From Larkinella humicola (lineage in GTDB: Bacteria > Bacteroidota > Bacteroidia > Cytophagales > Spirosomataceae), in contig NZ_VTWS01000001.1 in the NCBI RefSeq assembly GCF_008727875.1, positions 682,001 to 746,000 of the forward strand: a stretch of 64,000 bases of DNA. Reading direction: 5' to 3'. Both the position numbers and the translations under genes were made by a program. Positions 2,770-63,866 of this stretch are shown piece after piece (position 1 is the stretch's first letter; the number at the start of each line of letters is the position of its first letter). The notes under the pieces are model-generated. The model did not search any database, was not told the DNA's origin, and saw only the letters and a program-made list of their open reading frames with translations.

Positions 2770-2901
2770 ATGGTTAACTATGGTTTTATGGTTAAATGGT
2801 TTTGATGGTTAAAATGGTTAAATGGCTAGTTGGTTGTCATTCAGCCCTTTAACCATAAAACCATAATTAACCATCCATCCATAGTTAACCATTTAACCAC
2901 A
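2770..2901. repeat. Long intergenic inverted repeat built from the word TGGTTAA
   Basis: The left arm (about 2770-2825) holds four copies of TGGTTAA, spaced by TATGG and ATGG words. The right arm (about 2848-2901) holds four copies of TTAACCA. The arms pair imperfectly over about 50 nt around a 20-25 nt centre. It fills most of the gap between the DUF2452 gene and menB, which face the same way. No T-run follows it, so it is not a classical terminator. A single-arm relative lies at 28551-28581. Confidence 0.85.
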
Positions 2902-2921
2902 AAACTTTAACGTGTAAATCA

Positions 2922-3746
2922 ATGCAAAGCAAATATCCTTGGGAAACCATTAAAGAATACCGCGAGATTCTGTTTCAGTATTACGAAGGAGTTGCCAAAA
3001 TCAGCATCAATCGACCCGAGAAGCACAATGCCTTTACGCCGTTGACGGTCAGGGAAATGAGTGAAGCCATGGAACTCGCCCGCCAGGACGAGCGCGTGGG
3101 TGTTGTGATTCTGACAGGTGAAGGCGGCAAAGCGTTTTGCAGTGGCGGTGATCAGTCCGTCCGGGGCCATGGCGGTTATGTGGGTGAAGACAGCGTTCCG
3201 CGCTTGAATGTGCTCGATTTCCAGATGCAGATCCGGCGGATTCCAAAACCGGTGATTGCGATGGTGGCCGGCTGGGCCATCGGCGGTGGTCACGTCCTGC
3301 ACGTGGTTTCCGACCTGACGATTGCGGCCGAAAACGCCCGCTTCGGCCAGACCGGCCCGAAAGTCGGGAGTTTCGACGGCGGTTTTGGAGCCTCATATCT
3401 GGCCCGGATTGTCGGACAGAAAAAAGCCCGCGAAATCTGGTATTTGTGTGACCAGTACGACGCCCAGGAAGCCCTGCAAATGGGGCTGGTCAACAAAGTG
3501 GTTCCGCTGGAACAACTCGAAGAAACCACCCTGGAATGGTGCCGTAAAATGCTCGAAAAAAGTCCGATTGCGCTGCGGATGCTGAAGGCATCGTTCAATG
3601 CCGAACTGGATGGTCAGGCCGGCATTCAGCAACTGGCGGGTGATGCCACCCTGTTGTATTATTTGTCGGATGAAGCGAAAGAAGGCAAAGATTCGTTTCT
3701 GGAGAAACGCAAACCGGATTTCAGTAAATTTCCAAAATTCCCTTAA
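2922..3746 (+). CDS. menB: 1,4-Dihydroxy-2-naphthoyl-CoA synthase
   Basis: This 274-residue crotonase-fold enzyme closes the second ring of the naphthoquinone in menaquinone synthesis. Visible family features are NRPEKHNAF near the N-terminus, the oxyanion-hole segment KAFCSGGDQ, the AIGGGH motif, [16 protein letters not shown] with the MenB-type Asp, and the C-terminal [13 protein letters not shown], which is diagnostic of MenB. Length and motifs are all standard. menE is close by on the other strand. The next gene, a GntR regulator, begins 9 bases after the stop and is probably co-transcribed. Confidence 0.95.
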
Positions 3747-3755
3747 ACCCTGTCC

Positions 3756-4772
3756 ATGATTGATCTTCATATCGAATCTCAGTCGAGCGTTCCGAAATAC
3801 CGTCAGATCGTCAACGCGGTGATTAATGGCATTGAAATTGGCACCCTGAAACGGGACCAGCAATTGCCGTCGATCAATGAACTGAGTGAAGAATATTACC
3901 TGGCCCGCGATACGGTCGAGAAAGCCTACAACTTCCTGAAAAAAGAAGGGGTGATTCAGGCGGTTCAGGGCAAAGGATTTTTTATCCGGCGCGATGGTCC
4001 AGGCCAGTTGCGGGTTCTGTTTCTAATCAACAAGTTTAGCGCCTACAAAAAAATCATTTATTATTCGCTGGTGAATGCCCTGGGCCACAACGCCGTGGTC
4101 GACCTGCGCATTCACCACCACAGCGCACAGCGGTTCAAAAAATTGTTGGAAGAAAATCTGGGGCAATACCACTATTACGTGGTGATGCCGCATTTTTACG
4201 AGGAAACCGAACAGGTGAACGTCGTCAAGTTGCTGGAGCAGATTCCGGCCAACGAACTGATCATTCTGGATCGGGAGATTTCGGAATTACACGGCAACTA
4301 TTCGGCGATTTACCAGCAGTTTGACCGCGATATTTATGAAGCCCTAGAATCGGGCCTGGACGTGCTGGAAAAGTACAAAAAACTAACACTGGTTTTCCCG
4401 AAAGAAGTCTATTATCCCCGGGAAATCGTACGCGGTTTTCGCAATTTCTGCGTGCATTACCATAAAGAGTTCGAGCTGCTCGACACGCTGACGGGGCGCG
4501 AATTGCAAACCGGTACGGCATATATTGTGCTGGAAGATGGCGACCTCGTCGAACTAGTTCGGCAGGTCAAACAGCGGGGCCTGAAGCTGGGGCAGGACAT
4601 CGGGGTGCTGGCCTTTAACGAAACGCCCCTGAAAGAAGTCCTGGCCGACGGCATTGCGGTGATCTCTACCGATCACGAAAAAATGGGCGAAACCGCGGCC
4701 CGGCTAATTCTGGAAAAACGACACGAAAAAGTAAAAAACCCCTTTCAGTTGATTCGGCGGGCGTCTTTGTAA
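3756..4772 (+). CDS. GntR-family transcriptional regulator with a sugar-binding-like C-terminal domain
   Basis: The protein has 338 residues. Residues 1-75 form a winged helix-turn-helix of the GntR type (PKYRQIVNAV, LPSINELSEEY, ARDTVEKAYNFLKKEGV, GKGFFI). The rest resembles a LacI/periplasmic-binding-protein-type effector domain ending in DHEKMGETAARLIL. Such proteins bind operator DNA and respond to a small ligand, here unknown. It follows menB by 9 bases. Its last 28 bases overlap the convergent DUF1460 gene. The nearest plausible targets are the menB operon or the glucan genes further right, but this is only inferred from position. Confidence 0.85.
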   Translation: MIDLHIESQSSVPKYRQIVNAVINGIEIGTLKRDQQLPSINELSEEYYLARDTVEKAYNFLKKEGVIQAVQGKGFFIRRDGPGQLRVLFLINKFSAYKKIIYYSLVNALGHNAVVDLRIHHHSAQRFKKLLEENLGQYHYYVVMPHFYEETEQVNVVKLLEQIPANELIILDREISELHGNYSAIYQQFDRDIYEALESGLDVLEKYKKLTLVFPKEVYYPREIVRGFRNFCVHYHKEFELLDTLTGRELQTGTAYIVLEDGDLVELVRQVKQRGLKLGQDIGVLAFNETPLKEVLADGIAVISTDHEKMGETAARLILEKRHEKVKNPFQLIRRASL

Positions 4773-5644
4773 GAGAGGTTTTGCGGACTGTTTTCTTTCA
4801 AACGCGCCACCCGAATTCCCGAAAATTGCCGGTTCCATAACACGTAATCGGCCAGCGGTTCTTCCGAAATCATCACTTCACCATAATGCGACGACGCATG
4901 CAGCAAATGAGCCCTTTTCTCCCCGTTGGGGCCATTTTGCCAGACCACAAAGCCGACGTGCTTCATATCCAGGCCGGGCCGGGAAGCCGTCAGCATGATG
5001 ATGTCGCCTTCTTTCAGGCTGCTTTCGATCTCTTTGATGCGTTTTTTGGGAATAAACCAGAAGCTCTGCTGGCTGATGGCTGACTCTACCAGCGCGATCT
5101 GCTGGCGGTTTCTCGGGTCCGAAAGCTGCGGGTATTTCCAGGTGCTTTTGGTCATATACGAGACCGGTTTTGACACCTGCATACCGCCGATTTTTCGCGT
5201 CACATCCTGTACAATCCCCTTTTGCTCGTTATCGACCAGCCATTCCGAAAAGTAATGCAGACGACTGGCAAACCCGTCGATGGTGCCGTTGCGATACCGC
5301 AGTCTGGTCAGGTTCTTGCGAAAAAGCCGGTCGAACTGAACGGAATCCTGCTCGTTGAGCAACTGATGACGGGCCAGCGAAAGCGCGAGGGTGGTTTCCA
5401 GAAACGTGGTGCAATCGAACGCCCGAAAATTGACCACCAACTGTTCGGTTTCATTGCCGTCGAGCGTATGGGCCACATACGGCCGTCCCTGAAACGATTT
5501 ACTGATGGCAATTGCCGTTTCGGCCGGGGAGATTCCGGGCGCAACGGCCACCTGCCGGAGTGGCGAAGTTGGCACGGTTTCCTGGGCAATCGAACGGGTA
5601 AAAGGCACTAACGCAAGCAGAACGGTAAACAGTTTCTTCATCAA
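4745..5644 (-). CDS. DUF1460 (N-acetylmuramoyl-L-alanine amidase-like) secreted protein
   Basis: This 299-residue protein has a signal peptide of about 21 residues (MKKLFTVLLALVPF...SIAQ). The body matches DUF1460: FRAFDCTTFLETTLAL with the likely catalytic Cys, the EGDIIMLTASRPGLDMKHVGFVV block with the His, and the HASS segment. The family is NlpC/P60-like and probably acts on cell-wall peptides in the periplasm. Its 3' end overlaps the convergent GntR gene by 28 bases. It is separated by about 90 bases from the next upstream gene on the same strand. Confidence 0.8.
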   Translation of the reverse strand: MMKKLFTVLLALVPFTRSIAQETVPTSPLRQVAVAPGISPAETAIAISKSFQGRPYVAHTLDGNETEQLVVNFRAFDCTTFLETTLALSLARHQLLNEQDSVQFDRLFRKNLTRLRYRNGTIDGFASRLHYFSEWLVDNEQKGIVQDVTRKIGGMQVSKPVSYMTKSTWKYPQLSDPRNRQQIALVESAISQQSFWFIPKKRIKEIESSLKEGDIIMLTASRPGLDMKHVGFVVWQNGPNGEKRAHLLHASSHYGEVMISEEPLADYVLWNRQFSGIRVARLKENSPQNLSYKDARRIN

Positions 5645-5736
5645 GTACGGTGGTTAAGAAAACGCAGGATTGGAAAAGCAAGACCGGTTTTCCGTGAAAA
5701 TAGAAAAAATCGGGTCATGATGCCAATGCACCCTTT

Positions 5737-7608
5737 TTATTTGATTTCCAAAACCAGCACGCTCAACGGTGGCAATTCGACCGGAACTCCGGAAGTCGCG
5801 GCTGATTTCAATTTGGTCTTTGTTCGAAAAATATCGCTAAACGAATACGTTTTGGCCTCGTCCAGCTTCATCGTTTTCCAGGCTTCTACCGGAATGCGCA
5901 CCGTCGTTTTAGCGGTTTTCTGTTTGTCGAAATTGCAGACAATCAGCAGTTTCTGTTTGGCCGAGTGCCGCAGGTAACTATACAGCCGGTGCTGGTCGTA
6001 GCCGGGGCTTTTGCCGGTGTTGTTTGCGTATTGCAAGTCGTAAAAAGCACCCGTCCGGATGGCGTCGCTGATGTTGACCAACTGGTTCAACTGCTGGTAA
6101 AATTTGCGCAGATTTTTCTGGTCGTCCGTGAGCTTGCCACCATCGAACTTCGCGGGTTTGCCAACGCTGCCATTGGTCCAGGCCTGAAATTCCGGAACGC
6201 CCCAGTAATCAAAAATGGTCGTCCGGCCATCCTCCCCCTGAAACCCTTCGGCCTGCGTCGGATTGACGCCCAGTTCCTGCCCGAAATAGATCATCAGCGG
6301 GCCGGTGTGCAAGGTCGCCGAAAGCGTCATGGCCGGAACCGCCGTCCAGGGGTCACCGGCAAAAAACCGGGAGGCCACGCGCTGTTCGTCGTGGTTTTCC
6401 AGAAACCGCAGCATGTGATTGGCATAATCGCCCGACTCCTGTTGCCACACCCGCGTAATGTCTTCCGTCGTGCCGTGTCCTTCCATCAACCGCCGAACGG
6501 CATCATACAGGCCAACCTTGTCGTAGAGGTAATCGAATTTGCCGGTAAAAATATAGTTGCGGTATTGCTGCGGGTTGTAGATTTCGGCGATAAAAATCAC
6601 GTCGGGAAAAGCCGCTTTGATCTGCGAAATGGCCCAGCCCCAGAATTCGACCGGCACCATTTCGGCCATATCACAACGAAAACCGTCGACGCCTTTGGCC
6701 GCCCAGAACAGGAGAATGTCCTTCATTTTCACCCAGGTCGACGGAACCGGATCGAAGTGCGTCTGGCGGTTGTTGAGGTAATCGACTCCGTAGTTCAGTT
6801 TGATCGTTTCATACCAGTCATTGAGGTCGGGCCGGGCTTTAAACACGTCATTGCCCGTCGCCTTGGCCGGTTGCTCAACGTAATTCGCCACCGGTTCTTC
6901 CGGCGTAACAACGCCCTGCGGAACCTGGAACGATTGACCGGGCAAATAATAGAAATTGTTTTTCGGATCGAAGGGTTTGCTGGTGTCATCGCCTTCTCCC
7001 ATGTCCTGCACGCCCGCCGGTTTGGCGTCGGAATGATACTCCCGGGCCACGTGATTGGGAATAAAATCGATCAGCACTTTCAGATCGTTGGTGTGCGACC
7101 GTTTCAGTAAATCCTCGAATTCCTTCATCCGGTTCGGCACATCGACCGCTAGATCCGGGTTCACGTCGTAATAATCTTTGATGGCATAGGGCGAACCCGC
7201 CCGGCCTTTCACCACCTGCGGATTGTCTTTCCTGATCCCGAATGCCGAGTAATCCGTCATCAGCGCATGTTCGATAATACCGGTGTACCAGACGTGTGAA
7301 ACCCCAAACTTCTTCAGTTCCTGCAAGGCTTTGGCAGTGATGTCATTGAATTTGCCAACTCCATTTTCATCCCGGCTTCCCCAGGGTTTATTGGTCGTAT
7401 TTTGATTACCGAAAAGACGCGTAAAGATTTGGTAAACAACAAGTTTGTCTGATTTTTCTTCGATGGGCACAGCTGTATTCATGTTCGACAGTAAGGGTTC
7501 AACGGAATAAGCCGCCAGGGTATGCAGGATACCGGAAGCCACCAGTCCACCGGCAAAAGCCCGGCGGTTTATTTTTATGGAATCTGGAGCGGATGAATTC
7601 GTCTTCAT
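5737..7608 (-). CDS. GH13 alpha-amylase-family hydrolase with a Tat-like N-terminus
   Basis: I start this roughly 623-residue protein at the ATG at 7608; a TTG two codons upstream is less likely. The N-terminus carries INRRAFAGG followed by a hydrophobic stretch, suggesting Tat export. The GH13 regions are complete: DFIPNHVA (I), GFRCDMAE with nucleophile Asp313 (II), FIAEIYN with acid Glu342 (III) and ENHDEQR (IV). It would cleave alpha-glucans in the periplasm. It is divergent from a second GH13 gene, and the two flank a shared promoter region. The exact substrate cannot be read from the sequence. Confidence 0.88.
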   Translation of the reverse strand: MKTNSSAPDSIKINRRAFAGGLVASGILHTLAAYSVEPLLSNMNTAVPIEEKSDKLVVYQIFTRLFGNQNTTNKPWGSRDENGVGKFNDITAKALQELKKFGVSHVWYTGIIEHALMTDYSAFGIRKDNPQVVKGRAGSPYAIKDYYDVNPDLAVDVPNRMKEFEDLLKRSHTNDLKVLIDFIPNHVAREYHSDAKPAGVQDMGEGDDTSKPFDPKNNFYYLPGQSFQVPQGVVTPEEPVANYVEQPAKATGNDVFKARPDLNDWYETIKLNYGVDYLNNRQTHFDPVPSTWVKMKDILLFWAAKGVDGFRCDMAEMVPVEFWGWAISQIKAAFPDVIFIAEIYNPQQYRNYIFTGKFDYLYDKVGLYDAVRRLMEGHGTTEDITRVWQQESGDYANHMLRFLENHDEQRVASRFFAGDPWTAVPAMTLSATLHTGPLMIYFGQELGVNPTQAEGFQGEDGRTTIFDYWGVPEFQAWTNGSVGKPAKFDGGKLTDDQKNLRKFYQQLNQLVNISDAIRTGAFYDLQYANNTGKSPGYDQHRLYSYLRHSAKQKLLIVCNFDKQKTAKTTVRIPVEAWKTMKLDEAKTYSFSDIFRTKTKLKSAATSGVPVELPPLSVLVLEIK

Positions 7609-7749
7609 GTCCAAGATACAAATTTAGCACGGTCTGCCCGACCCGGCCGACCAGTTTCAGCGTCAAATTTCAAAATTGCTGGCAATATGAAAACAAATCC
7701 TTTATTTTACCATATTTAAAATCGCGTTTCCATCTCTCCGCTAACCGTT

Positions 7750-9627: not shown

Positions 9628-9717
9628 TCTGGCTTGGATGAAAACGGGCGAACGCTGACGGATAAGTCCATTTTTATCGCTTTATTGCAGTACACAACCT
9701 GCATAATCAATCAGCCA

Positions 9718-10383
9718 ATGCCCATAAAAGCCTTACTTTTTGACCTGGATGGCGTTATTGTCGACACCGCCATTTACCATTATCAAGCCTGGCGACGGAT
9801 GGCCAACTCGTTGGGTTTCGATATTACGGAAGAATTCAATGAGCAACTGAAAGGCATCAGCCGAACCGAATCCCTGGAAATTATTCTGGCTCACGGTGGC
9901 CTGACGGTTTCGGAAGATCATAAACTGGCGCTGGCTACGCAGAAAAACGAGTGGTATTTGGAACTGGTTTCACAGATGACCCCCGCAGCAATTCTGCCCG
10001 GCGTTACGGATTTTTTTGTGGCCGTTAAAACCGCCCACCTGAAAACCGCCATTGGTTCGGTGAGTAAAAATGCGCGCCTGATTCTGGAACGCATCGGCAT
10101 GATCGACGATTTCGATTCCATCATCGATGGCACCAAAATCAGCCGGGGCAAACCCGATCCGGAGGTTTTTCTGAAAGGAGCCGCCGAACTACACGTCCGG
10201 CCCGACGAATGCGTGGTTTTTGAAGATGCCGTTGCGGGTGTCGAGGCCGCCAAACGGGGCGGGATGCTGGCCGTTGGCATTGGCTTGCCGTCGGTCTTGA
10301 CCCAAGCCGATCTGGTGGTTCCGTCGCTGGCGAAATTGACGCTGGAGGAGGTTTTCACCCTGTCAGCGGTCGAAAGACCCTGA
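9718..10383 (+). CDS. pgmB: Beta-phosphoglucomutase
   Basis: I choose the ATG at 9718 because the HAD motif LLFDLDGVIVDT follows at once; the frame extends upstream without family-like sequence. The 221-residue protein has the HAD nucleophile region (DLDG), the GSVSKNA loop, a Lys in SRGKPDPE and the acidic EDAVAGVEAA motif. It converts beta-glucose 1-phosphate to glucose 6-phosphate, the partner step of GH65 phosphorolysis. The last nine or so codons, including TLEEVFTLS, lie in the left arm of a palindrome that continues past the stop, so the C-terminus appears to have been remodelled by that repeat. Confidence 0.9.
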   Translation: MPIKALLFDLDGVIVDTAIYHYQAWRRMANSLGFDITEEFNEQLKGISRTESLEIILAHGGLTVSEDHKLALATQKNEWYLELVSQMTPAAILPGVTDFFVAVKTAHLKTAIGSVSKNARLILERIGMIDDFDSIIDGTKISRGKPDPEVFLKGAAELHVRPDECVVFEDAVAGVEAAKRGGMLAVGIGLPSVLTQADLVVPSLAKLTLEEVFTLSAVERP

Positions 10384-10552
10384 CAGCGGTGAAGACCTCC
10401 TCCAGAGCCGTCGCATGATCGACAACCCTAACAGCGGTCGAAACCCAATCAGCGGTCGAACGGTGGCTCAACCGATCATATCATGCCAGCAGCGGCTATC
10501 CTTTTCATTAAATCAAAACCGCTGTCAGGGTCTACCGATCATGCGATGACCC
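10342..10552. repeat. Two successive inverted repeats with AGCGGTCGAA direct repeats, overlapping the end of pgmB
   Basis: The first inverted repeat spans 10342-10405: CTGGAGGAGG in the pgmB coding end pairs with CCTCCTCCAG after the stop, and the arms agree over about 25 nt with one mismatch and one indel. A second runs from about 10410 (CGCATGATCG, then CCCTAACAGCGGT) to about 10552 (ACCGCTGTCAGGG, then CGATCATGCG). Between and within them CAGCGGT recurs at 10364, 10384, 10432 and 10450, mostly followed by CGAA. There is no long T-run. It fills the gap before the DinB gene. Confidence 0.85.
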
Positions 10553-10575
10553 GGCGCTAACCGGGTTAGAAAAAT

Positions 10576-11148: not shown

Positions 11149-11264
11149 GTATATTTACGCCCAGCCCTCGATCAAAAAACCATAAGTATTTACCAATCAA
11201 TTTATTAACAGCGCACCCTATCACATAGTGTTTTCCATCTCGCTAAAAATAACCTTAACCCGGA

Positions 11265-22575: not shown

Positions 22576-22662
22576 ATTAAAAATTAAGAATGAAAAGTTA
22601 AAAATAGGCCTGAACACCGCAGTATTCGAAAACCGGTTTTCACTTTTAATTTTTAACTTTTA
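22576..22662. repeat. Inverted repeat between rpmI and rplT, inside the operon
   Basis: The left arm (22576-22598, ATTAAAAATTAAGAATGAAAAG) pairs with the right arm (about 22639-22662) over about 22 nt with few mismatches. AGTTAAA/TTAACTTT words repeat in both. In the centre lies a perfect 14-nt palindrome GAAAACCGGTTTTC (22628-22641). The repeat sits in the gap between two co-transcribed ribosomal genes. Confidence 0.75.
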
Positions 22663-22740
22663 ACCTTTAACTGCACTTGAAAGGCCTGAGATCGGGTTGA
22701 ACATGAAACCGCGCGGAGAATCCGCGAAAGGGGGCGTTGC

Positions 22741-22995: not shown

Positions 22996-23106
22996 GTGTA
23001 AGGTTTAGTAAGCGTTTGAGGTTTAAAGTATAAGGTTTAACGTTACCGGGATAGTGGCAACGTTAAACTTCACACGCTAAACCTCAAATCGTACTAAACC
23101 TTAAAC
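22996..23106. repeat. Inverted repeat between infC and rpmI, inside the operon
   Basis: The left arm (22996-23047) and right arm (about 23057-23106) match over about 50 nt with roughly 80 percent identity around a 9-nt centre. The words AGGTTTAGTA, GTTTGAGGTTTA and GTTTAACGTT appear in both orientations. It starts 4 bases after the infC stop and has no T-run, so a stable hairpin would form in the mRNA between infC and rpmI. Confidence 0.85.
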
Positions 23107-25871: not shown

Positions 25872-25964
25872 AATGCTAAATGTAAAATGAGAAATGGTGA
25901 ATGTAAAATTGAATACACTCTAACTACTTTTACATTCACCATTTCTCATTTTACATTTAGCATT
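25872..25964. repeat. Perfect 37-bp inverted repeat between a TPR gene and thrS
   Basis: The arms 25872-25908 and 25928-25964 match perfectly over 37 nt around a 19-nt centre. The arm contains AAATGTAAAATGAG and GGTGAATGTAAAA words. It lies 10 bases after the TPR stop (minus strand) and about 45 bases upstream of thrS. It is AT-rich and without a T-run. Confidence 0.92.
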
Positions 25965-32552: not shown

Positions 32553-33527
32553 ATGTGTCGCCGATTCCTGCCCATCGTACTTGTATTGGTTTTTTGCGTC
32601 GGATTGAAGCCTGCGTCGGTGGTGTCGCCCAGCGATCACTACGGCCAGATCGATTACTACGCGCGTCATGCTCCGGACTCGTACGCCCGCAGCATTACCA
32701 GTTTATCGGACTACCTGACGGCTCCTGCCCGCACGGATATGGACAAAGTTCGGGTGATTTACGCCTGGATGGTTTCCCACATCCGCTACGATCAGGAGGC
32801 CGTTCACAACCGGAGTTCGCAAAAGTATTATTCTGAATTTGAATACGCCAACCGCGTTCTGCGCCAGCGAAAAGGGCTCTGCACCGGGTATGCGCTGTTG
32901 TTCAAATACCTCCTGAAACGGGCGGGTGTTCAGGCCGTCAACATCCGGGGGTATGCGCGCACGGAGGATAAGGAAGCGGGACGCCCCGTTGCGGTGGTCG
33001 ACCACGAATGGAACGCCGTTAACATTGAGGATGAATGGTTTTTGCTGGATCTGGCCTGGGCCGTTACCACCGCTTCGGAAGGGGCTGGCAGCAATGATTT
33101 CTATTTCCTGACGCCACCTGAAGTATTCGTTTCCCAACACTTTCCTACAGACTCCCGCTGGCAGTTTCTGGATCAGCCGCTCAGCAAAAGTGAATTCGAC
33201 CGGTTTCCCAAACTCTATGATCCGTATTTCCAGATGGGATTTGGGCCGGACTTCCCGCGCGACGGCCAGATTCGGGCTCAGGGAAAAGCCGAACTGACCC
33301 TACAAAACGAACAGGCGCTGGAATACCTCTGCACGGTCAGTCGCTTCGGACAATCGAAGGGGTCAGAAGTTCCGGTGAGAGTGGCCCGTTCCGGCAATCA
33401 GCACCAGTTGCAGTTCAACGTCCCGATCCGGGGCTGGTCGACGCTCCATATTTTTGCCCGATCCCGTGGGAACGCCCGCGTGAAGAAATACGACTGCATC
33501 GCGTCGTTCTCGATCTATAATTCGTGA
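32553..33527 (+). CDS. Secreted transglutaminase-like protein
   Basis: The 324-residue protein has a hydrophobic N-terminus (FLPIVLVLVFCVGLK) and a transglutaminase-like core with the triad in RKGLCTGYA (Cys110), VVDHEWNAV (His151) and FLLDLAW (Asp166). The C-terminal 100 residues are beta-rich and follow the KYDCIASFSIYNS end. It may cleave or cross-link peptides on the cell surface. Its stop codon TGA is also the beginning of the following long inverted repeat. Confidence 0.85.
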   Translation: MCRRFLPIVLVLVFCVGLKPASVVSPSDHYGQIDYYARHAPDSYARSITSLSDYLTAPARTDMDKVRVIYAWMVSHIRYDQEAVHNRSSQKYYSEFEYANRVLRQRKGLCTGYALLFKYLLKRAGVQAVNIRGYARTEDKEAGRPVAVVDHEWNAVNIEDEWFLLDLAWAVTTASEGAGSNDFYFLTPPEVFVSQHFPTDSRWQFLDQPLSKSEFDRFPKLYDPYFQMGFGPDFPRDGQIRAQGKAELTLQNEQALEYLCTVSRFGQSKGSEVPVRVARSGNQHQLQFNVPIRGWSTLHIFARSRGNARVKKYDCIASFSIYNS

Positions 33528-33617
33528 ATAGACATGAGAGGATAGACAAGAGAGTAGAGACCAAAACAGGAAGGTTTCCCATTCTCTATTCTCTTGTCTA
33601 TCCTCTCTTATCTATTC
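33526..33617. repeat. Inverted repeat of GACAAGAGAG words between convergent genes
   Basis: The left arm 33526-33561 and right arm 33582-33617 match at 32 of about 36 positions around a 20-nt centre. The word GATAGACAAGAGAGTAGAGA is shared, with small changes, with the repeat at 42647-42722. The left arm begins inside the TGA stop of the transglutaminase gene, and the right arm ends 5 bases before the hyuA-like gene. Confidence 0.9.
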
Positions 33618-37321: not shown

Positions 37322-37663
37322 ATGTCAAACAAAAAGGAAACTAATTTACCCAGTCATTCGGTGATTGAAACCCGATGGTTGACTATGGTAAATGAAATCC
37401 AGCAGCAACACAATGTATTGATTGACCTGATCGAACAACTAGAACAAAATCCGGTAAACAATCAGAAAACCGTTTTTCGGTTGACAACCCTGCAGCAGCA
37501 TGTGCTGGATACACTGACCCACCTTTTGGCCGAATCGTTGACCGAGATTGAATCCGTTGTTTCAACTCAGGTGGAGCGACTGCAAAAAAAACACGCTCAC
37601 AGCCAGATTTTGATTCAACTCAAAGACCAGATCGATCTGGAACTCAATCAACTCCGGACGTAA
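37322..37663 (+). CDS. Small coiled-coil hypothetical protein
   Basis: I start at the ATG at 37322; an in-frame GTG at 37310 is possible. The 113-residue protein is almost entirely helical with long heptads (TRWLTMVNEIQQQHNVLIDLIEQLEQ and VERLQKKHAHSQILIQLKDQIDLELNQL) and no membrane segment. I do not recognise the family. Confidence 0.6.
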   Translation: MSNKKETNLPSHSVIETRWLTMVNEIQQQHNVLIDLIEQLEQNPVNNQKTVFRLTTLQQHVLDTLTHLLAESLTEIESVVSTQVERLQKKHAHSQILIQLKDQIDLELNQLRT

Positions 37664-37740
37664 TGGATTCTGAATCGGGTTTTCAACCCGGCACGCGTTC
37701 CAATCTGCATTCCCGCTTTTCTCTGTCCTACATAAAAAAT

Positions 37741-37770
37741 AACCCCGGCACAGGTGCCGGGGTTTCTTTT
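37741..37770. terminator. Bidirectional terminator
   Basis: An 11-bp stem (AACCCCGGCAC with GTGCCGGGGTT) with a 2-nt centre is followed on the plus strand by TTCTTTT and on the minus strand by TTATTTTTTA. It closes the coiled-coil gene and the small gene on the opposite strand. Confidence 0.9.
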
Positions 37771-37791
37771 GCAGTCAATTTTCGTGGTGTT

Positions 37792-38004
37792 CTACAGGGT
37801 TTCAACTTTTATGGTACCCGGATCATAAGTGGTTGGAATATGCACCTCCAGCCACTCTTCAAGCTGCATGAGTGCCCCTTCTTCCGTGTATGAATTGTAA
37901 ATGCGGCTTGCCAAATACGTGCCATCTTTGGCATATACCGTGCATTTGAACTTCTTTTTGTTCAAGGTTCCTCGCAGAGTTTTCATTTCCATGTTCATGA
38001 TCAT
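37792..38004 (-). CDS. Small hypothetical protein, 70 aa
   Basis: The 70-residue protein (start 38004, or one of several nearby in-frame ATGs) has the pattern CTVYAKDGTYLASRIYNSYTEEG followed by LMQLEEWLEV. It may be a single small beta-alpha domain. The terminator at 37741 follows it on the minus strand, which supports a real gene. The 62-residue gene at 38969 has a vaguely similar layout. Confidence 0.5.
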   Translation of the reverse strand: MIMNMEMKTLRGTLNKKKFKCTVYAKDGTYLASRIYNSYTEEGALMQLEEWLEVHIPTTYDPGTIKVETL

Positions 38005-38518
38005 TAAAGTTCAGCATACAGAGAGGGGGTGCATTAAAACCGTACAGACAGGCAATCAAAATCAATTCAACTCATTGAAGTCTTTTCGCAATTTACTCGA
38101 ATTAAAGGGCGGAGGTTACGAATAAAAAGAATGGAAAAACGAATTTTGATTACCGGTCTAATGAGTTATCAACTCCTTTTAAATCGAGCAAAAATCAAAC
38201 CAAGAGCACTATGTATAATTACATATTTTCTTAATTTATAATTATTTTAAAAAGACGAACAGATTTCTTTTTGGCTGCTTCTGTGCAACCATTGCTCCTC
38301 TATTCGGGTCTATACCGTCAGAATGACCCCATTTATCTCGGAAAACCTCTCCCTGTTTCGGATATAAAGATCAGATTTACTTTACGATGGTGAAACGAAT
38401 GTCCGGAAGCTTTGCATTCGGACATTTTTGTTTTACAAGCTGTAAATAATTTATTGCACAAGCAATATACTTTGCCGGGTTAGGTTGCACGTATTCATCT
38501 TAAAAAAAAGGTGCACAT
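38005..38518. other. 514-base intergenic region with an orphan plus-strand terminator
   Basis: At 38398-38435 an 8-bp stem (AATGTCCG with CGGACATT) is followed by TTTGTTTT on the plus strand, but no plus-strand gene lies upstream. Either a short RNA gene ends here or it is left from an older gene. The rest is AT-rich without an open frame I trust. Confidence 0.6.
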
Positions 38519-38788
38519 TCAGCGTGCCACATTTTTATTAATCTGTTCTTTTTTCTGTAAGACCTTGCCCTGTTCAATTAATTCCTGGTAGGTAAAATCT
38601 TCGTTGCGGACGTCATTGATTTCATTTTCAACCGTAGCCCGGTTGAATGCCGACCGACTCACAGAATCGGCATGAGCTTCCATTACTTTCGAATACTTTT
38701 CCGGATCGTATTTTTTATCCAGAGGATCGCAACTCAGGAGGGTGAAAGAAACAGAAGCCGTCAGAAAGAGTGTCAGCAGCTTTTTCAT
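38519..38788 (-). CDS. Small lipoprotein, 89 aa
   Basis: The 89-residue protein has a lipoprotein signal (MKKLLTLFLTASVSFTLLSCDP). The mature part is helical and highly charged (KYSKVMEAHADSVSRSAFNRATVENEINDV). Its function is unknown. It has no visible partner. Confidence 0.7.
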   Translation of the reverse strand: MKKLLTLFLTASVSFTLLSCDPLDKKYDPEKYSKVMEAHADSVSRSAFNRATVENEINDVRNEDFTYQELIEQGKVLQKKEQINKNVAR

Positions 38789-38968
38789 GGATATTAGGGT
38801 TTGACTGCATTAACCCGCATTCCCGCAGGATTGTTGCAAAAACAGGGTGCAATCAGCCCCAATCCGACAACACTGGCTTGGTGCCGGAAAGACTCCCAGA
38901 CCAGCCGTTATGACTACCTACCTGATGCCGGTTGCAATCAGCCACCGGAACCAATCATTTTGGTGAAT

Positions 38969-39157
38969 TTATAGAAGCTTTTCTTCCACATTGGCAGTCG
39001 AACTACCATCGTATTTGGTAATGGCTTTGTTAACCCTAACCAGTGTTCCCGCGTTTTGGGCGAGAAATCTTCGTTTGGCATCTAGCCGGTTGCTCGCTTC
39101 AACATAGGTGGTCCAGGACTCATCCCCTTTTAAAAAAGTTACTTTGTAGGTTTTCAC
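38969..39157 (-). CDS. Small hypothetical protein, 62 aa
   Basis: The 62-residue protein reads MKTYKVTFLKGDESWTTYV, then a helix with ASNRLDAKRRFLAQNAG. Small proteins of this shape are common in Cytophagales, but I know no name for it. No motif gives a function. Confidence 0.55.
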   Translation of the reverse strand: MKTYKVTFLKGDESWTTYVEASNRLDAKRRFLAQNAGTLVRVNKAITKYDGSSTANVEEKLL

Positions 39158-39753
39158 GCTTCGTTTTTTTCCGGTCTAGTGTTCGATGGGATGAGCAAAT
39201 GCCTGGTGCAGTGAATTTTGCCACACAAGCACTGATCGATCCGCTAACATACTCAATTATTCAAATGATTAATTGAATACTATGACAATCAAATCAGATG
39301 CCGGTTTAATCTTGAATTCTGAATATTGATAATACGGTCCAAAACGGGTAGAAAACGCAAAAAAATAGCCCGACCTCTTTGCAGGGCGAGCCATAAATAC
39401 GTGTCTAAATACCAATCTACAGGAAAAAAAACGACCAGAAGAAGCCGAAAGCGCGTTTCGGCATTCGTCTTAAAAACAAGACCCGTGAAATGATTCCGGG
39501 TCTGTTTGCTTACCAATCTCTATTAACGGAAGATTATGAGCCTTCCTTGCAAAATTAGGGCTGATAACCGTCAAAATATGGTACGATTCTACGATTATTC
39601 AACACTTTTATGCACAATAAAACCGGGACTGGCTCTGAGCCTCATTGCACGAATTTTATCGTCGGGCACGTTTTTTTTTCAACTGGTGCAATTGAAGGAA
39701 TGCAGCATCCGAAATTGAGTAGTTTTGACGAAGCGGGCGGAGTCAATTTTCCA
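39158..39753. other. About 600 bases with structured, possibly non-coding DNA
   Basis: Between 39360 and 39510 there are hairpins in a row: GCCGAAA with TTTCGGC (39443-39461) and AGACCCG with CGGGTCT (about 39480-39505), the second followed on the minus strand by TTGTTTTT. No convincing gene is visible. It may hold a small RNA or the end of a lost gene. Confidence 0.5.
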
Positions 39754-39789
39754 CAAAAAAATAACCCCGACAAAGTTTGTCGGGGTTAT
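39754..39789 (-). terminator. Terminator of tRNA-Glu
   Basis: A perfect 14-bp stem (ATAACCCCGACAAA with TTTGTCGGGGTTAT) with a 1-nt centre is followed on the minus strand by TTTTTTT. It lies 5 bases after the tRNA. Confidence 0.9.
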
Positions 39790-39794
39790 CGGAG

Positions 39795-39866
39795 TGACCA
39801 ATACGGGAATCGAACCCGTGTTTCAGCCGTGAAAGGGCCGCGTCCTAACCGCTAGACGAATCGGCC
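39795..39866 (-). tRNA. tRNA-Glu (UUC)
   Basis: On the minus strand GGCCGAT pairs with ATTGGTC to form the acceptor stem, the anticodon arm reads CCCTTTCACGG with anticodon TTC, and the T-arm contains GGTTCGATTCC. The 72-nt gene ends with A73 and does not encode CCA. Its terminator follows directly. Confidence 0.97.
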
Positions 39867-39989
39867 ATATCCAGTTTTCAGTTGGTCGGCGACTCATTTG
39901 CCAACCCTGATTCTGAAATTGTGGTGCAAAGATACGGCTAAAATTGATAGCTGCAAATCTCCAACTAAAAAAAAATGATTTTTCTGCGA

Positions 39990-40023
39990 TTTGACGGGGT
40001 TTTGTGGTTTCGACTTATTTTTG
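39990..40023 (+). promoter_or_regulatory. Predicted promoter of the M14 peptidase gene
   Basis: TTTG at 39990-39993 and TATTTTTG at 40016-40023 match the -33 and -7 elements with 22 bases between, slightly longer than usual. The start codon lies about 35 bases downstream. Confidence 0.45.
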
Positions 40024-40056
40024 GGGATTGCCCGATAAATTCATTATTTGCACTTC

Positions 40057-42633: not shown

Positions 42634-42646
42634 GTTTTTAGAGGAA

Positions 42647-42722
42647 AGAGAAAAGACAAGAGAGTAAAGATTAGCCGTGTTTTCAAAAAACCGGTTTGTC
42701 TTTACTCTCTTGTCTTTTCTCT
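42647..42722. repeat. Inverted repeat of GACAAGAGAG words between convergent genes
   Basis: The arms 42647-42670 and 42699-42722 match perfectly over 24 nt. AAGACAAGAGAGTAAAGA is nearly the same as the arm of the repeat at 33526-33617, 9 kb away. The centre contains AACCGG. It lies between the M14 gene and the kelch gene, which converge. Confidence 0.92.
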
Positions 42723-42732
42723 CTAGTCTGAT

Positions 42733-55444: not shown

Positions 55445-56860
55445 ATGTATACGAAAATATTTTGTGGTTTACTGTTGGGAAGTTTGCTGTTGTTCTCGGT
55501 TCTGTCCTGCAAGCAAACACCAACCACCGGGAACGATCCGACCAATGTCAATGATTCGAGCGTGGTACAAAGTCGAATTCCTACCGTGGATTGGGCCAAA
55601 AACGCGACCATATATGAGATCAATATCCGGCAATTTTCACCGGAAGGCACGTTCAAAGCCGTTGAAACGCAACTCACGCGCCTGAAAGAACTGGGTGTCG
55701 ATATTCTCTGGTTCATGCCCATTCACCCCATCAGCAAGGAAAACCAGCGCACCCTGCCCGGCAATCCGTATGCCGTAGAAGATTACAAGGCCGTCAATCC
55801 CGACTATGGCACGCTGGCCGATTTCAAGGCCCTCGTCAAACAGGCCCACGACCTGGGCATGCACGTGATCATTGACTGGGTGCCTAATCACACCGGCCGC
55901 GCGCACACCTGGGTGAAACAGCACCCCGACTGGTATACTCAAATCAACGGCAAGATGAGTCCGCCGATTGACGACCAGGGCAAGGTGACCGATCGACCCG
56001 ACGTGTTCGACCTCAACTACAAGAACCCGGAACTCCGGAGCGCCATGATGGACGCCATGCAGTTTTGGGTGCGCGAATGCGACATCGACGGCTACCGTTG
56101 CGAAGTCGCCGGCTATGTCCCGGATGATTTCTGGAGCGAAGTCCGCCCCAAACTCGACAGCATCAAAACCGTCTTTATGCTGGCCGAGTGGGAAGACAAG
56201 CCCGAGCATTTCAAGGAATGTTTTAACATGAATTATAGCTGGAGTACCTACCAGCTTATGAAGTTGATTGCGAAAGGCAAACGCCCGGCTTCTGCCCTCG
56301 ATTCGCTGCTGGCCCACAATAAGGAACGGTTTCCGCGTGGGTATTATCAGATGCAGTTTACGCAGAATCACGACGAAAATGCCTGGGTCGGCACCCCAAC
56401 CGAACTATTTGGCAATGGCGTCGATGCCTTCACGGTACTGGCGTTCACCTTCGATGGCATGCCGCTGGTGTATAACGGAATGGAGTCCAACCTGAATAAA
56501 CGACTGAAATTCTATGAAAAAGACCCGATTTACTGGGGCAATTACAGCAAAACGGATTTCTACAAAACCCTGTTGACGCTGAAACACCGCAACCGCGCTC
56601 TCTGGAACGGCCTGGCCGGTGGTTCCCTCATCAAAATTCCGACGGAGAAAGACGACAAAGTGTACGCTTTTTACCGCCAGCAGGAAAACGACCGGGTCAT
56701 CGTCATCGTCAACCTCAGCCCTACGCCCCAAACCATTCGGCTGAACGGCGACGGTTTTGAGGGCGTTTATACCGAGGTGTTCAGCCGCCAGCCCGCCGAA
56801 CTGCGCAACTCCCTGACGTTCGCACTCAAACCGTGGGAATATAAGGTGTATACCAATTAA
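55445..56860 (+). CDS. GH13 lipoprotein with Glu at the nucleophile position
   Basis: The 471-residue protein has a lipoprotein signal (GLLLGSLLLFSVLSCKQ) and a GH13 barrel: DWVPNHTG (I), GYRCEVAG with Glu220 where the family nucleophile is Asp (II), LAEWED with Glu248 (III) and QNHDENAW with Asp310 (IV). Codon 56102-56104 reads GAA, so the change is in the DNA. Such a substitution usually alters or lowers hydrolysis, so a transferase or binding role is possible. It would sit on the periplasmic side of a membrane, acting on alpha-glucans. Confidence 0.88.
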   Translation: MYTKIFCGLLLGSLLLFSVLSCKQTPTTGNDPTNVNDSSVVQSRIPTVDWAKNATIYEINIRQFSPEGTFKAVETQLTRLKELGVDILWFMPIHPISKENQRTLPGNPYAVEDYKAVNPDYGTLADFKALVKQAHDLGMHVIIDWVPNHTGRAHTWVKQHPDWYTQINGKMSPPIDDQGKVTDRPDVFDLNYKNPELRSAMMDAMQFWVRECDIDGYRCEVAGYVPDDFWSEVRPKLDSIKTVFMLAEWEDKPEHFKECFNMNYSWSTYQLMKLIAKGKRPASALDSLLAHNKERFPRGYYQMQFTQNHDENAWVGTPTELFGNGVDAFTVLAFTFDGMPLVYNGMESNLNKRLKFYEKDPIYWGNYSKTDFYKTLLTLKHRNRALWNGLAGGSLIKIPTEKDDKVYAFYRQQENDRVIVIVNLSPTPQTIRLNGDGFEGVYTEVFSRQPAELRNSLTFALKPWEYKVYTN

Positions 56861-56968
56861 GAGTTATGAGTGAAGAGTTATGAATTATAAGTGCTATCTT
56901 GGTTTAAGGATGCGCATTCATCCTTTTAACTCTTAATTCTTCACTCATAATTCTTAACTCTTCAATCC
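56856..56968. repeat. Inverted repeat of GAGTTATGAGTGAAGA words
   Basis: The left arm (about 56856-56891) holds AAGAGTTATGAGTGAAGAG and the right arm (about 56924-56968) its reverse complement with small changes. A short hairpin AAGGATG with CATCCTT lies at 56907-56926. The left arm touches the TAA stop of the GH13 gene. The next gene, in the same direction, starts 14 bases after the right arm. Confidence 0.85.
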
Positions 56969-56981
56969 TAAATTAACTTGC

Positions 56982-59018: not shown

Positions 59019-59071
59019 AGTCCCACAAATCAGTTTAATTTTACCCGCAGAAAAGTTATAGTATTGGATTA

Positions 59072-60862: not shown

Positions 60863-61678
60863 ATGACTTCACCAGCACTCACAACCGATATTACGACCCT
60901 CAGCGGCCAACTGCGGCTGAAGGTCCTCGAATTGTATAATAAGGCCCATGCCGGCCACATTGGCTGCTCGCTGAGCTGCCTCGATATGATGATTGCCTCG
61001 CTGATTCTGCGTAAACAGGAAGAAGATACGTTCATTCTGTCGAAAGGTCATGCCGCAGCGGCCTTATACGTCTGCCTCAATCATCTGGGCGAAATCTCGG
61101 ACGAACAATTGCAATCGTTCTACAAAAACGGCACCACCCTGCCCGCTCACCCCGCACCCAACAAACACAAAGGCATTCCGTTTGCCACCGGCTCACTCGG
61201 CCACGGTTTTCCCATTGCGTCGGGTATTGCGCACGCGAACAAATTACAGGGCAACACCAACGCCGTGTATGTGCTGATGTCGGACGGGGAAACCAACGAA
61301 GGCACCACCTGGGAAGCCGCCCACTACGCCCTGCAACAGGGACTGGATAACCTGACAGTGCTGATCGACAAGAACGGTTTGCAGGGGTTTGGCCCCACCG
61401 CCGAGGTGTTTGGCGACACGGCCGACGTGGCGAAATGGAAAGCCATCGGGTTTGACGTGGTCGAAGCTGATGGTCATGATGTGGAAGCCCTGCTCGTGAT
61501 CCTCGACACGCTACGGCTGCAAACCAATGGCAAACCCAAAGTCATTATTGCCCACACGGTGAAAGGCAAAGGCGTTTCGTATATGGAAAACCGGCTTGAA
61601 TGGCATTATTTGCCGATGACTGCCGACCTCTACGACCAGGCCTGCAACGATATAAACGACCGGTATTTTACCGCTTGA
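60863..61678 (+). CDS. Transketolase N-terminal (thiamine-diphosphate-binding) subunit
   Basis: The 271-residue protein covers only the first domain of transketolase: AGHIGCSLSCLDMMIASL, KGHAAAALYV, FATGSLGHGFPIASG, and the ThDP motif SDGETNEGTTWEAA with Asn near NGLQGFG. The C-terminal half begins at 63882 as a separate gene. It follows the GT-C gene with no gap. A split transketolase inside a glycan operon may make sugar precursors rather than serve the pentose pathway. Confidence 0.9.
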   Translation: MTSPALTTDITTLSGQLRLKVLELYNKAHAGHIGCSLSCLDMMIASLILRKQEEDTFILSKGHAAAALYVCLNHLGEISDEQLQSFYKNGTTLPAHPAPNKHKGIPFATGSLGHGFPIASGIAHANKLQGNTNAVYVLMSDGETNEGTTWEAAHYALQQGLDNLTVLIDKNGLQGFGPTAEVFGDTADVAKWKAIGFDVVEADGHDVEALLVILDTLRLQTNGKPKVIIAHTVKGKGVSYMENRLEWHYLPMTADLYDQACNDINDRYFTA

Positions 61679-61679
61679 G

Positions 61680-61736
61680 ACATTTTTACTGACACCTGTC
61701 AGGTTTTCAAAACCTGACAGGTGTCAGTAAAAATGT
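61680..61736. repeat. Perfect 28-bp inverted repeat
   Basis: Arms 61680-61707 and 61709-61736 match perfectly around a single C. ACCTGTCAGG and its reverse complement recur, and each arm holds an inner CTGACA/TGTCAG palindrome. It begins right after the transketolase stop and is followed by TTACTACATTT. The 57-nt element could act as a strong hairpin but has no long T-run. Confidence 0.95.
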
Positions 61737-61761
61737 TACTACATTTACCAGTTAACCACGA

Positions 61762-63759
61762 ATGTCTAAACAGATCCTTCCGTACCAGGACAGCATCCTT
61801 CAACTAAAAGGACCCATTTTCGTCTTCGGAGCCAGCGGCTTTATCGGTGCCAATTTATTCGATCAGATTTTTCAGCTCCGCAAGGATTGCTACGCCCTGA
61901 CGCACGACGCAACCAAAGCCTGGCGGCTGAAGTTGCTGAACGTTCCGACGGAAAATGTCATTCACTGCGATATACTTTCCCATAAATCGGTTCAGGAAAT
62001 TTTTGACCGCTACAAACCCCGCACCATCTTCAACCTGGCGGCATACGGGGCCTACAGCAAACAGAAAAACGTCAACCTGACCTACGAAACCAACGTCAAC
62101 GGTACGGTCAACATTCTCGAAAACTGCACGCCCGACACGGTGTATATTCACGCCGGCAGCAGCTCGGAATACGGTTTTAACTGCACTGCCCCGAAAGAAA
62201 CCGACCGCGTCGAGCCCAACAGCCACTACGCCGTTTCGAAAGTTTCGGCGGCTTACATGCTGGAATTTTACGCCCGCGTCCACGGCCTCAAAACCCTGAA
62301 CCTGCGGTTGTATTCGATTTATGGCGGCTGGGAAGAACCCGACCGGCTGATTCCCCGCCTGGTGGAAGAAGCCCGGAAAGACACCCTGCCTCCGCTGGTT
62401 TCGCCCGACATCAGCCGCGATTTTGTTTACATCGACGATTGCGTGGAAGCCTTTGTTCAGGCCGCCCTGAAAGTCGACAAAACCATCAGCGGACGGTCGT
62501 ATAACATCGCAACGGGTCAGAAAACAACCATGCGCGAGCTGGTTGACGAAACCCGCAACACATTTGGGTTGACCATCGATCCCGTCTGGGGCAGCATGGG
62601 AAACCGGCAGTGGGACCTCAGCGACTGGTATGGCGATCCCGAAGCCGCCAACGCCGACCTGGGCTGGAAAGCCCGGACGCCCCTGGGCGTCGGACTCCGA
62701 AAAACCGCCGACTGGCAGATCCAGCACGACTATGCCGAACGCGTGTTGCCTGCGTTTGCCAACCCGACGCTCAACCCCGTCATCACGGCCATCATTGCCT
62801 GCTACAAAGACGCACAGGCCATTCCGTATATGTATGATCGGCTGGTCAAGACGTTCAACGAGATGAAGGTGCGGTACGAAATCATTTTCGTGAACGACAA
62901 TTCACCGGACAACCAGGAAGAAGTCATCGACGGAATTTGCGCGAAAGATCCCAACGTGATCGGCATTACCCATTCGCGCAACTTCGGTTCGCAGTCGGCT
63001 TTTCTGAGCGGCATGGAAATTTCGTCGGGCGACGCCGTGGTGCTGATGGACGGCGATTTGCAGGACCCCCCCGAAATCATTCCCAGCTTCTACGAAAAAT
63101 GGCAGCAGGGTTTTGACGTCACGTACGGCGTTCGGGTGCAGCGCGAAATGCCACCCCACGTTCATTTCTTTTACCGGACATTCTACCGGCTGTTCAAGAA
63201 AATGTCGTACATCAACATTCCGGTCGATGCGGGAGATTTCTCGATGATCGATCAGAAAGTGGTGCGTGAACTCGTGGCCCTGCCCGAAACCGAGCAGTTT
63301 CTGCGTGGTCTGCGGGCCTGGGTGGGATTCAAGCAAACCGGCGTCGGTTACGTGCGGCCGGAGCGGATGTTCGGCGTATCGACCAACAATTGGACGAAAA
63401 ACATCTGGTGGGCCAAAAAAGCCATTTTCTCCTTCAGTTTTGCCCCGCTCGAACTGATGTCCTACGCCGGATTCCTGCTAACCGGGCTGTCGCTGCTGGG
63501 CATTCTCTGGCAGATTTTGGCTAAATTTGTGTTCTTCCCCAACACCCCCGCCGGTATCTCGACCATCATTGTGCTGGTTATGCTGTTCGGTGGCATCAAT
63601 TTGCTGGGGGTGTCATTTGTCGGCGAATACATCAGCAAGATTTTTGAAGAAACGAAAAAGCGACCCAAATTCATCCGCACCAAGGTTCGAAAAGGCGAGC
63701 ACCTCTACAAAACCGCATCCGAAATCCGGGCGCTGGTGGAAGCGAGAAAAACAAAATAG
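61762..63759 (+). CDS. NDP-sugar epimerase fused to a polyprenyl-phosphate glycosyltransferase
   Basis: The 665-residue protein joins two complete domains. Residues 15-325 form an extended SDR with GASGFIG (Gly23-Gly29), NLAAYGAYS and HYAVSK (Tyr156, Lys160). Residues 338-665 form a family 2 glycosyltransferase with ACYKDA, VNDNSPD, MDGDLQDPPE (Asp430, Asp432) and two C-terminal membrane segments, like GtrB/ArnC proteins. The joint would let one polypeptide make a nucleotide sugar and load it on undecaprenyl phosphate. It lies between the two transketolase halves and near the GT-C gene. Confidence 0.9.
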   Translation: MSKQILPYQDSILQLKGPIFVFGASGFIGANLFDQIFQLRKDCYALTHDATKAWRLKLLNVPTENVIHCDILSHKSVQEIFDRYKPRTIFNLAAYGAYSKQKNVNLTYETNVNGTVNILENCTPDTVYIHAGSSSEYGFNCTAPKETDRVEPNSHYAVSKVSAAYMLEFYARVHGLKTLNLRLYSIYGGWEEPDRLIPRLVEEARKDTLPPLVSPDISRDFVYIDDCVEAFVQAALKVDKTISGRSYNIATGQKTTMRELVDETRNTFGLTIDPVWGSMGNRQWDLSDWYGDPEAANADLGWKARTPLGVGLRKTADWQIQHDYAERVLPAFANPTLNPVITAIIACYKDAQAIPYMYDRLVKTFNEMKVRYEIIFVNDNSPDNQEEVIDGICAKDPNVIGITHSRNFGSQSAFLSGMEISSGDAVVLMDGDLQDPPEIIPSFYEKWQQGFDVTYGVRVQREMPPHVHFFYRTFYRLFKKMSYINIPVDAGDFSMIDQKVVRELVALPETEQFLRGLRAWVGFKQTGVGYVRPERMFGVSTNNWTKNIWWAKKAIFSFSFAPLELMSYAGFLLTGLSLLGILWQILAKFVFFPNTPAGISTIIVLVMLFGGINLLGVSFVGEYISKIFEETKKRPKFIRTKVRKGEHLYKTASEIRALVEARKTK

Positions 63760-63772
63760 AGAAGTAAAAGTT

Positions 63773-63866
63773 GTTTCGCGGAGTTGAGCTGAGAAAAGAA
63801 GAGATAAGCGGAGAGGTATAAAAACTCCGCTTATCTCCCCCTTTTCTCAGCTCAACTCCGCGAAAC
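63773..63866. repeat. Inverted repeat, about 41 bp arms, inside the glycan operon
   Basis: Arms 63773-63813 and 63825-63866 match over the first 26 nt perfectly and then with one gap and two mismatches. GTTTCGCGGAGTTGAGCTGAG and AGATAAGCGGAG words repeat. It sits 14 bases after the epimerase-GT stop and 15 bases before the transketolase C-terminal gene. Confidence 0.93.

Follow-up and report, generated by a model that had tools for sequence, protein, structure and literature searches.

We identified families of long, dispersed palindromes in the genome of Larkinella humicola (7.86 Mb), starting from ten inverted repeats in a 64,000-nt stretch of its contig C11 (the window). The palindromes lie at gene 3′ ends and turn over between species at conserved slots; their two arms change in concert, and some of their loops have flipped in place. 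With a probability of about 60%, we read these gene ends as slots for dispersed palindromes that spread and replace one another, with template switching keeping each copy self-complementary. Six-digit slot positions below are C11 coordinates, and shorter ones are positions in the window.

Palindrome families at gene 3′ ends

A strict hairpin scan (at least 20 matched arm positions, at least 85% identity, loop of at most 100 nt) of the window and a further 800 kb of the genome, 864 kb altogether, yielded 105 hairpins. Ninety-one were mostly intergenic and nine mostly inside predicted open reading frames (ORFs), the predicted intergenic DNA amounting to just 87.6 kb. Gaps of at least 45 bp, each subjected to a single dinucleotide shuffle, gave no hairpin, which places the observed frequency above that of shuffled intergenic DNA, one of the comparisons on which the first-pass annotation of the window had staked its claim. 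ORFs were taken from a greedy longest-ORF caller, so the gap contexts given here are approximate.

Within C11:1-746000, 89 of 103 hairpins fell into 15 sequence groups of at least two members and 14 were single; a single palindrome family was rejected on this count. Arms measure roughly 20–58 nt and loops mostly 10–50 nt, and many arms consist of degenerate repeats of 7–10 nt. The larger groups are A (AATGTAAAATGATGAATG words), E (GGTTTACGGTTTTCAGTTTACGG), F (CCCCTAAATCCCCTAAAGGGG), D (GGGAACACGGATTGAACGGATT), C (TTAAGAGTTA), B (GTTTCGCGGAGTTGAGCGGAG), H (ATGGTTAAA) and G (GATAGACAAGAGAG). Repeated 5-mers span 49% of the arm compared with 26% in shuffled arms (88 arms of at least 24 nt), confirming the reported repetition of words within arms. 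Groups I1 and I2 are without word structure (0.00 and 0.16, compared with 0.07 and 0.13 after shuffling) and look like REPINs, I2 having GTAGCTCCGGAGG. Hairpins built of E, C, H or AATGAACAATTA words have an inner core in common, GGCTGACGC or GGCTAACGC, and one window hairpin has 48 matches in the genome, itself and both orientations counted. The accompanying proposal that each palindrome is made of words specific to its own locus did not stand: the hairpins at 33526 and 42647 belong to one family, and the genome-wide grouping extends this to most copies. All four members of that family, G, lie at convergent gaps, a number too small for a claim. Hairpins of the GTGAATGAGTGAATGAGCG type were also observed inside predicted ORFs at C11 394676, 647985 and 649059; these ORFs may be spurious.

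The 102 hairpins with both neighbours comprise 39 in convergent, 48 in tandem and 7 in divergent gaps, together with 8 in predicted ORFs; the gaps of at least 60 bp available number 69, 200 and 83, respectively. Tandem hairpins start no more than 20 nt past the upstream stop in 35 of 48 cases and end no more than 35 nt before the next start in 28, and 27 of the 39 convergent hairpins have one end within 20 nt of a stop. Divergent gaps in C11:480-746 kb are empty (0/36 in L. humicola and 0/114 in five relatives), and further left on C11 hairpins occupy 4 of the 62 mapped divergent gaps of L. humicola. In the C11 gap from 594755, all five genomes compared retain a GAAGGTATC/GATACCTTC hairpin accompanied by an A/T run, and two of them also have an adjoining word hairpin.

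Such placement could reflect ordinary transcription terminators that in this lineage are long and often rich in AT, and whose sequence drifts since only the stem matters. Intrinsic (Rho-independent) terminators consist of a hairpin followed by a T-run, and they share with the palindromes a hairpin directly past the stop codon; the 3′-end position and the convergent enrichment agree with this explanation. The Larkinella palindromes differ in their longer stems, in forming genome-wide families, in often standing between co-directional genes and in lacking a T-run. Past the 48 tandem stems no T-run was found, the next 8 nt containing on average 2.40 T compared with 2.21 further on, and at least five T in 5/48 cases compared with 3/48 in the control. 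The palindromes are therefore not ordinary intrinsic terminators, in agreement with the first-pass annotation, which had set them apart from hairpins with a T-run.

Structure z-scores, calculated for gaps of 30–200 nt (at most 50 per class), favour the terminator explanation to some extent. Tandem slots without a long palindrome that are occupied in a relative were structured (z < −2) in 29 of 39 cases, compared with 17 of 50 never-occupied ones; the difference was small for convergent slots (12/17 emptied, 15/30 never-occupied), and 11 of 50 never-occupied divergent gaps were structured. This extra structure in emptied tandem slots fits either function or decayed remnants. Enrichment of inverted repeats past stop codons is, moreover, described as general in bacteria in the available part of PMC13155455. 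Set against these points are the 28 tandem hairpins ending so close to the next start, and the two hairpins inside the thrS-infC-rpmI-rplT row, a place in which complete termination would presumably carry a cost. At 594755 the hairpin with an A/T run on the right gene's side persists in every genome compared, whereas the word hairpin is missing in three. Furthermore, independent drift neither flips loops nor shares words genome-wide. We consider ordinary termination an unlikely explanation.

Turnover of slots, spread and the search for a mover

Window gaps were compared with those of G004, G007, L. knui, L. rosea and G006, and some slots also with those of L. punicea, Larkinella sp. C7, L. terrae and L. 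arboricola. Over one 1.5 kb query, G004 and G007 share about 92% identity with the L. humicola genome; in protein matches to one window gene, L. punicea and sp. C7 stand at 100%, followed by L. knui, L. rosea, L. terrae and L. arboricola. Of 436 gaps, 270 could be mapped to G007 and 125 to L. rosea.

For convergent and tandem gaps, we compared slots that are occupied in L. humicola and lack a related hairpin in the relative with slots that are unoccupied. An unrelated hairpin was present in the G007 gap at 18 of 44 occupied slots and 13 of 141 unoccupied ones (p=6e-6), and in the L. rosea gap at 10 of 26 and 4 of 67, respectively (p=3e-4). After removal of four pairs each judged doubtful by eye (380355, 576424, 704577 and 707829 for G007; 578863, 649912, 704577 and 645418 for L. 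rosea), the values were p=2e-4 and 0.013. A related hairpin was retained at 23 further slots in G007 and 3 in L. rosea. The occupant may be exchanged for another family, joined by a nested or adjacent palindrome, reduced to a leftover arm, or replaced by nothing. Slot 568936 is occupied in four of four genomes, the hairpins representing three kinds of words, of which the C type is shared by G007 and L. knui, and loss at slots 179106 and 432987 leaves a piece of the outer arm. At slot 549487, three genomes have the core GGCTGACGCA; G007 and L. knui combine it with TTAAGAG-type words and L. humicola with GGTTTACGG words. Since the three loops all differ, these hairpins may have arrived independently. 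Sequence at orthologous sites is not uniform across the relatives, as it would have had to be to refute the first-pass annotation on this point.

Family E sequence extends beyond Larkinella. A family E 23-mer (at most two mismatches) matched 129 sites in the L. humicola genome, both arms counted; across the order, 7 of 148 genomes contain it (L. humicola included), in four taxonomic families, and the reversed control gave 0. Among 20 stretches from the other six genomes, four have the core and nine an E-worded hairpin with one end within about 20 nt of a predicted stop, stop calls that are weak because they come from short ORFs of at least 40 aa. In 80 loci round one gene, hairpin density per 100 kb was 13.0 in Larkinella (10 hairpins) and 12.9 in Siphonobacter (6), compared with 1.3 in Spirosoma and 2.0 in Runella (2 hairpins each). 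Siphonobacter has GTTT-word hairpins directly past the gene, at the 61680 slot, in two loci, and in three loci near the presumed place of the 63773 slot.

Cyanobacterial STRR sequences are heptamer repeats. Heptamer repeats are likewise short repeated intergenic words with a patchy distribution that includes Bacteroidetes (TAACTGA, in the available part of PMC4679880); they are, however, direct repeats, and TAACTGA in Maribeggiatoa lies mostly just ahead of starts, whereas the Larkinella words are paired into 3′-end hairpins. No word-built hairpins of Cytophagales were found in the titles and abstract openings of the literature among the matches listed.

A closer likeness is offered by repetitive extragenic palindromic (REP) sequences, BIMEs and REPINs with their REP-associated tyrosine transposases (RAYTs), which are likewise palindromes dispersed between genes, can touch stop codons and have proposed roles in termination and mRNA stability (available parts of PMC3733652 and PMC6006769). 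The Larkinella palindromes differ in having longer arms, built of degenerate words in many groups, and in comprising many unrelated families at once. They could nevertheless be REP/REPIN elements of an atypical Bacteroidetes kind, moved by RAYT (TnpA_REP) transposases: the genome contains seven Y1_Tnp matches, I1 and I2 resemble REPINs, and the flanking structures of RAYT subclass 2.6, mostly from Bacteroidetes, are atypical and have copies elsewhere (PMC6006769, available part). At six of the seven Y1_Tnp loci, BLAST against 1.15 Mb of the genome detected no word-family repeat within about 1.5 kb, and none of families A, B, C, D, G and H showed repeats round any of the seven. Near one locus (L049) lie a copy of family F, a short I-like piece and a fragment resembling E. 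Three others (L047, L048 and L051) are accompanied by separate inverted repeats, those of L047 and L048 without a similar copy in the 1.15 Mb. The degenerate-word arms also look unlike the GTAG or CGTC super-families described in the available part of PMC3733652; with respect to this tag, I2 contains GTAGCTCCGGAG, and the A–H arms were read by eye alone. A RAYT link was not found for most word families, nor were groups I1 and I2 traced to a transposase gene. RAYT was rejected as their mover because six of seven transposase neighbourhoods lack them, and an origin as REP/RAYT elements appears rather improbable. Longer elements bounded on each side by family arms were provisionally set aside; a few arm pairs 150–4000 bp apart were seen in 1.15 Mb (families A, B, C and G).

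Concerted arm change and loop inversion

In the two largest groups, A and E, identity averages 75–76% between copies and 94–96% between the arms of one copy, the arm–arm values being inflated by ungapped extension. A one-arm search for family A without a pairing threshold revealed the partner arm at 21 of 21 loci, with medians of 0.97 between arms and 0.83 between copies, the latter inflated by free end gaps.

We then compared hairpins kept between genomes (arm identity at least 0.85, word and non-word hairpins together). L. humicola and G007 differ by 26 double arm changes, compared with 5.8 expected (23 loci, 710 pairs; 0/2000 permutations); pairing is preserved in 20 of them, and 65 one-sided changes occur alongside. 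With G007 as the start, 28 loci gave 27 double changes compared with 6.2, and the comparison of L. humicola with G004 gave 5 compared with 0.8 (6 loci, 0/2000). Loops are clearly inverted in place at 649912 (20/20), at 625437 (16/17, identical arms) and at 564689 (25/27), where the hairpin is short and not word-built and each arm carries a matched change. The loop at 594755 is probably inverted as well, though it is partly self-complementary; weaker inverted flags at 578863, 615234, 661657 and 715528 (0.65–0.73) were not counted.

Arm homogenisation, clustered paired changes and spacer or loop inversion are published as footprints of template switching between the arms of inverted repeats (available parts of PMC8604942 and PMC8794818), and both joint arm change and, at the three loci above, in-place loop inversion were found here. 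The cases in those parts of the papers come from yeast coding DNA and RNA genes, whereas Larkinella presents many dispersed intergenic palindromes of one bacterial genus and, in addition, whole-arm replacement.

Selection on the RNA stem alone, with compensatory mutations keeping the arms paired, would also produce an excess of paired double changes and slots conserved across species. It does not explain the inversion of whole loops, which point compensation cannot bring about, and sense-strand mismatches, pooled over orthologous hairpins from several genomes, showed no significant wobble bias (63 G-T, that is G-U in RNA, compared with 48 A-C, p=0.18). As a sole cause we regard it as very unlikely. 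A role of the RNA at 3′ ends or between cistrons, the alternative offered by the first-pass annotation, would nevertheless be plausible: the 3′-end position, slot conservation and residual structure of emptied tandem slots fit it, whereas the lack of significant wobble bias and the slots of some relatives without any long hairpin do not. Recombination between the arms by a site-specific invertase or RecA, with gene conversion homogenising them, would suit near-identical inverted arms round a flipped segment, but it is very unlikely here, as the flipped segments of just 17–27 nt and arms of 18–45 nt, which to our knowledge are too short for known invertases, differ in sequence and revealed no common site.

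In the explanation that we favour, long palindromes of about 15 sequence groups would occupy slots at gene 3′ ends and in gaps between genes that converge or run in the same direction, and would spread through some copying process. During replication, the growing strand would switch template between the arms, copying one arm onto the other and at times flipping the loop, and each copy would stay a near-perfect hairpin while the copies diverge from one another. At 3′ ends the palindromes may persist as harmless or mildly useful RNA hairpins, candidate uses being 3′-end protection, weak bidirectional termination and the uncoupling of neighbouring genes.

Several observations weigh against this explanation, the inflated identities noted above among them. 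The concerted-change test takes no account of clustering among changes and covers non-word hairpins as well, and 5 of its 12 rows have p>0.05, all with 3 to 5 loci. Among nine L. humicola–G007 loci with comparable loops (arm similarity at least 0.85), five loops are direct and two inverted, that at 594755 is the probably inverted one noted above, and the orientation at 544052 is ambiguous. A second region (contig C15 against 71 kb of G007 contig C266) contained no same-arm pair and so neither confirms nor denies the arm and loop results there. Slot conservation would equally follow from an insertion hot spot. Some relatives have no long hairpin at a slot, where any function therefore cannot be essential. 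No E hairpin was found in four E sites from the two most distant families (f14 and f20). Finally, the searches made identified no enzyme or autonomous copy for the word families, and no clear target-site duplication was seen by eye in eight L. humicola–G007 gap alignments (one mis-mapped) and three others. The earlier suggestion of a mobile palindrome family rewritten locally thus survives in part: turnover between species and concerted arm change agree with it, whereas the many families and the words common to several loci do not, and transposition itself is at most putative.

More tentatively, and with some doubt, we propose that these hairpins may represent a Cytophagales class of self-maintaining 3′-end palindromes, in which the slot would be inherited, template switching would maintain pairing and the outer arms would swap 'word dialects', sometimes round a kept core.

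The window palindromes and their significance

All ten inverted repeats reported for the window are present at or near their proposed positions according to repeat search and RNA folding (Table 1). Seven pass the strict scan, and those at 10342, 22576 and 22996, being shorter or less perfect, fail it.

Table 1. Palindromes of the window, with arm length and arm identity
Position	Words or family	Arms	Genomic context
2769-2875	Family H (ATGGTT words)	31 nt, 94% (repeat search and folding)	4 nt past stop of DUF2452 gene, ahead of enoyl-CoA hydratase gene
10342-10405	Composite, J-like, CCCTGTCAGCGG-type words	18 nt, 94%; weaker, different structure	Overlaps predicted 3′ end of HAD hydrolase gene ending at 10383
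22577-22670	TTAAAAATTAAG words	20 nt, 90% (22577-22656)	Between rpmI (stop 22741) and rplT (L20)
22996-23105	GGTTTA words	33 nt, 82% (23015-23088)	Between infC (IF-3, stop 23111) and rpmI
25872-25964	Family A (AATGTAAAATG words)	37/37	10 nt past stop of TPR gene, upstream of thrS
33526-33617	Family G (GATAGACAAGAGAG words)	35 nt, 91%	Fills convergent gap
42640-42729	Family G	44 nt, 82%; 24/24 part at 42647-42722	Fills convergent gap
56857-56957	Family C (TTAAGAG words)	35 nt, 86%	Overlaps alpha-amylase gene stop codon
61680-61736	Family J (CCTGTCAGG)	28/28, 1 nt loop	1 nt past stop of transketolase N-terminal gene, 25 nt ahead of following start
63773-63866	Family B (GTTTCGCGGAG words)	26/26	13 nt past a stop

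Their orthologous slots illustrate the range of turnover. At 2769, a hairpin passes the strict scan in L. humicola and G004 and fails in G007, L. knui, L. rosea and G006. The 10342 palindrome has variants in G004 and G007 and none in L. knui. Nested palindromes of the CCTGACAGCGG type and of variable length extend over window positions 10342-10560 at the end of the HAD hydrolase gene; they are longer in G004, shorter in G007 and absent from L. knui, and in L. humicola they may provide the stop codon of that gene.

The hairpins at 22577 and 22996 lie in the thrS-infC-rpmI-rplT row, in which infC, rpmI and rplT follow thrS on the same strand (thrS, infC and rplT were identified by Pfam, and rpmI (L35) by eye from its sequence). 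At the 22577 slot the words differ, G007 having AAGAGTGAAGAG and L. rosea AATGACTAATGA, and G006 has no hairpin; at 22996 purine-word hairpins (AAAAGGAACAAGGGAGG type) substitute in G004 and L. rosea. The 25872 hairpin is absent from L. knui, L. rosea and G006, and its loop holds a second palindrome in other relatives, F-type in G004 and I-type in G007.

At 33526, G004 and G007 keep the GATAGACAAGAGAG words, L. rosea has family K (GACGATTGACC type), L. knui shows an unrelated and weaker fold, and G006 has no hairpin; the loop is perhaps inverted in G007, with a similarity of only 0.68. Family K also occupies the 42640 slot of L. rosea, and L. knui has a shorter hairpin there. The TTAAGAG words of the 56857 slot recur in L. 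punicea and sp. C7; L. rosea and L. terrae carry AATGAACAATGA-type words there. Palindromes of J-type at 61680 are long in L. punicea and L. terrae and short in sp. C7, L. knui and L. rosea. At 63773, L. punicea, L. rosea and L. terrae share family B with L. humicola, sp. C7 and L. knui have family E (GGTTTACGG), and L. arboricola has different words.

A search of the window against Rfam 15 at gathering scores matched no hairpin family, the sole match being a tRNA at 39795-39866. This tRNA lies in a segment of about 2.4 kb (37663-40048) without an ORF of at least 100 aa.

Paired arm changes are usually taken as evidence of a functional RNA stem. Here, paired changes and in-place loop flips without significant wobble bias point to replication as a source of covariation, and covariation-based RNA discovery in such genomes would need to control for covariation driven by replication. 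With sister genomes about 92–93% identical and dozens of slots, Larkinella offers a natural system for following the birth, flipping and loss of palindromes, and one suited to asking whether hairpins at gene ends are kept for a purpose or merely tolerated.

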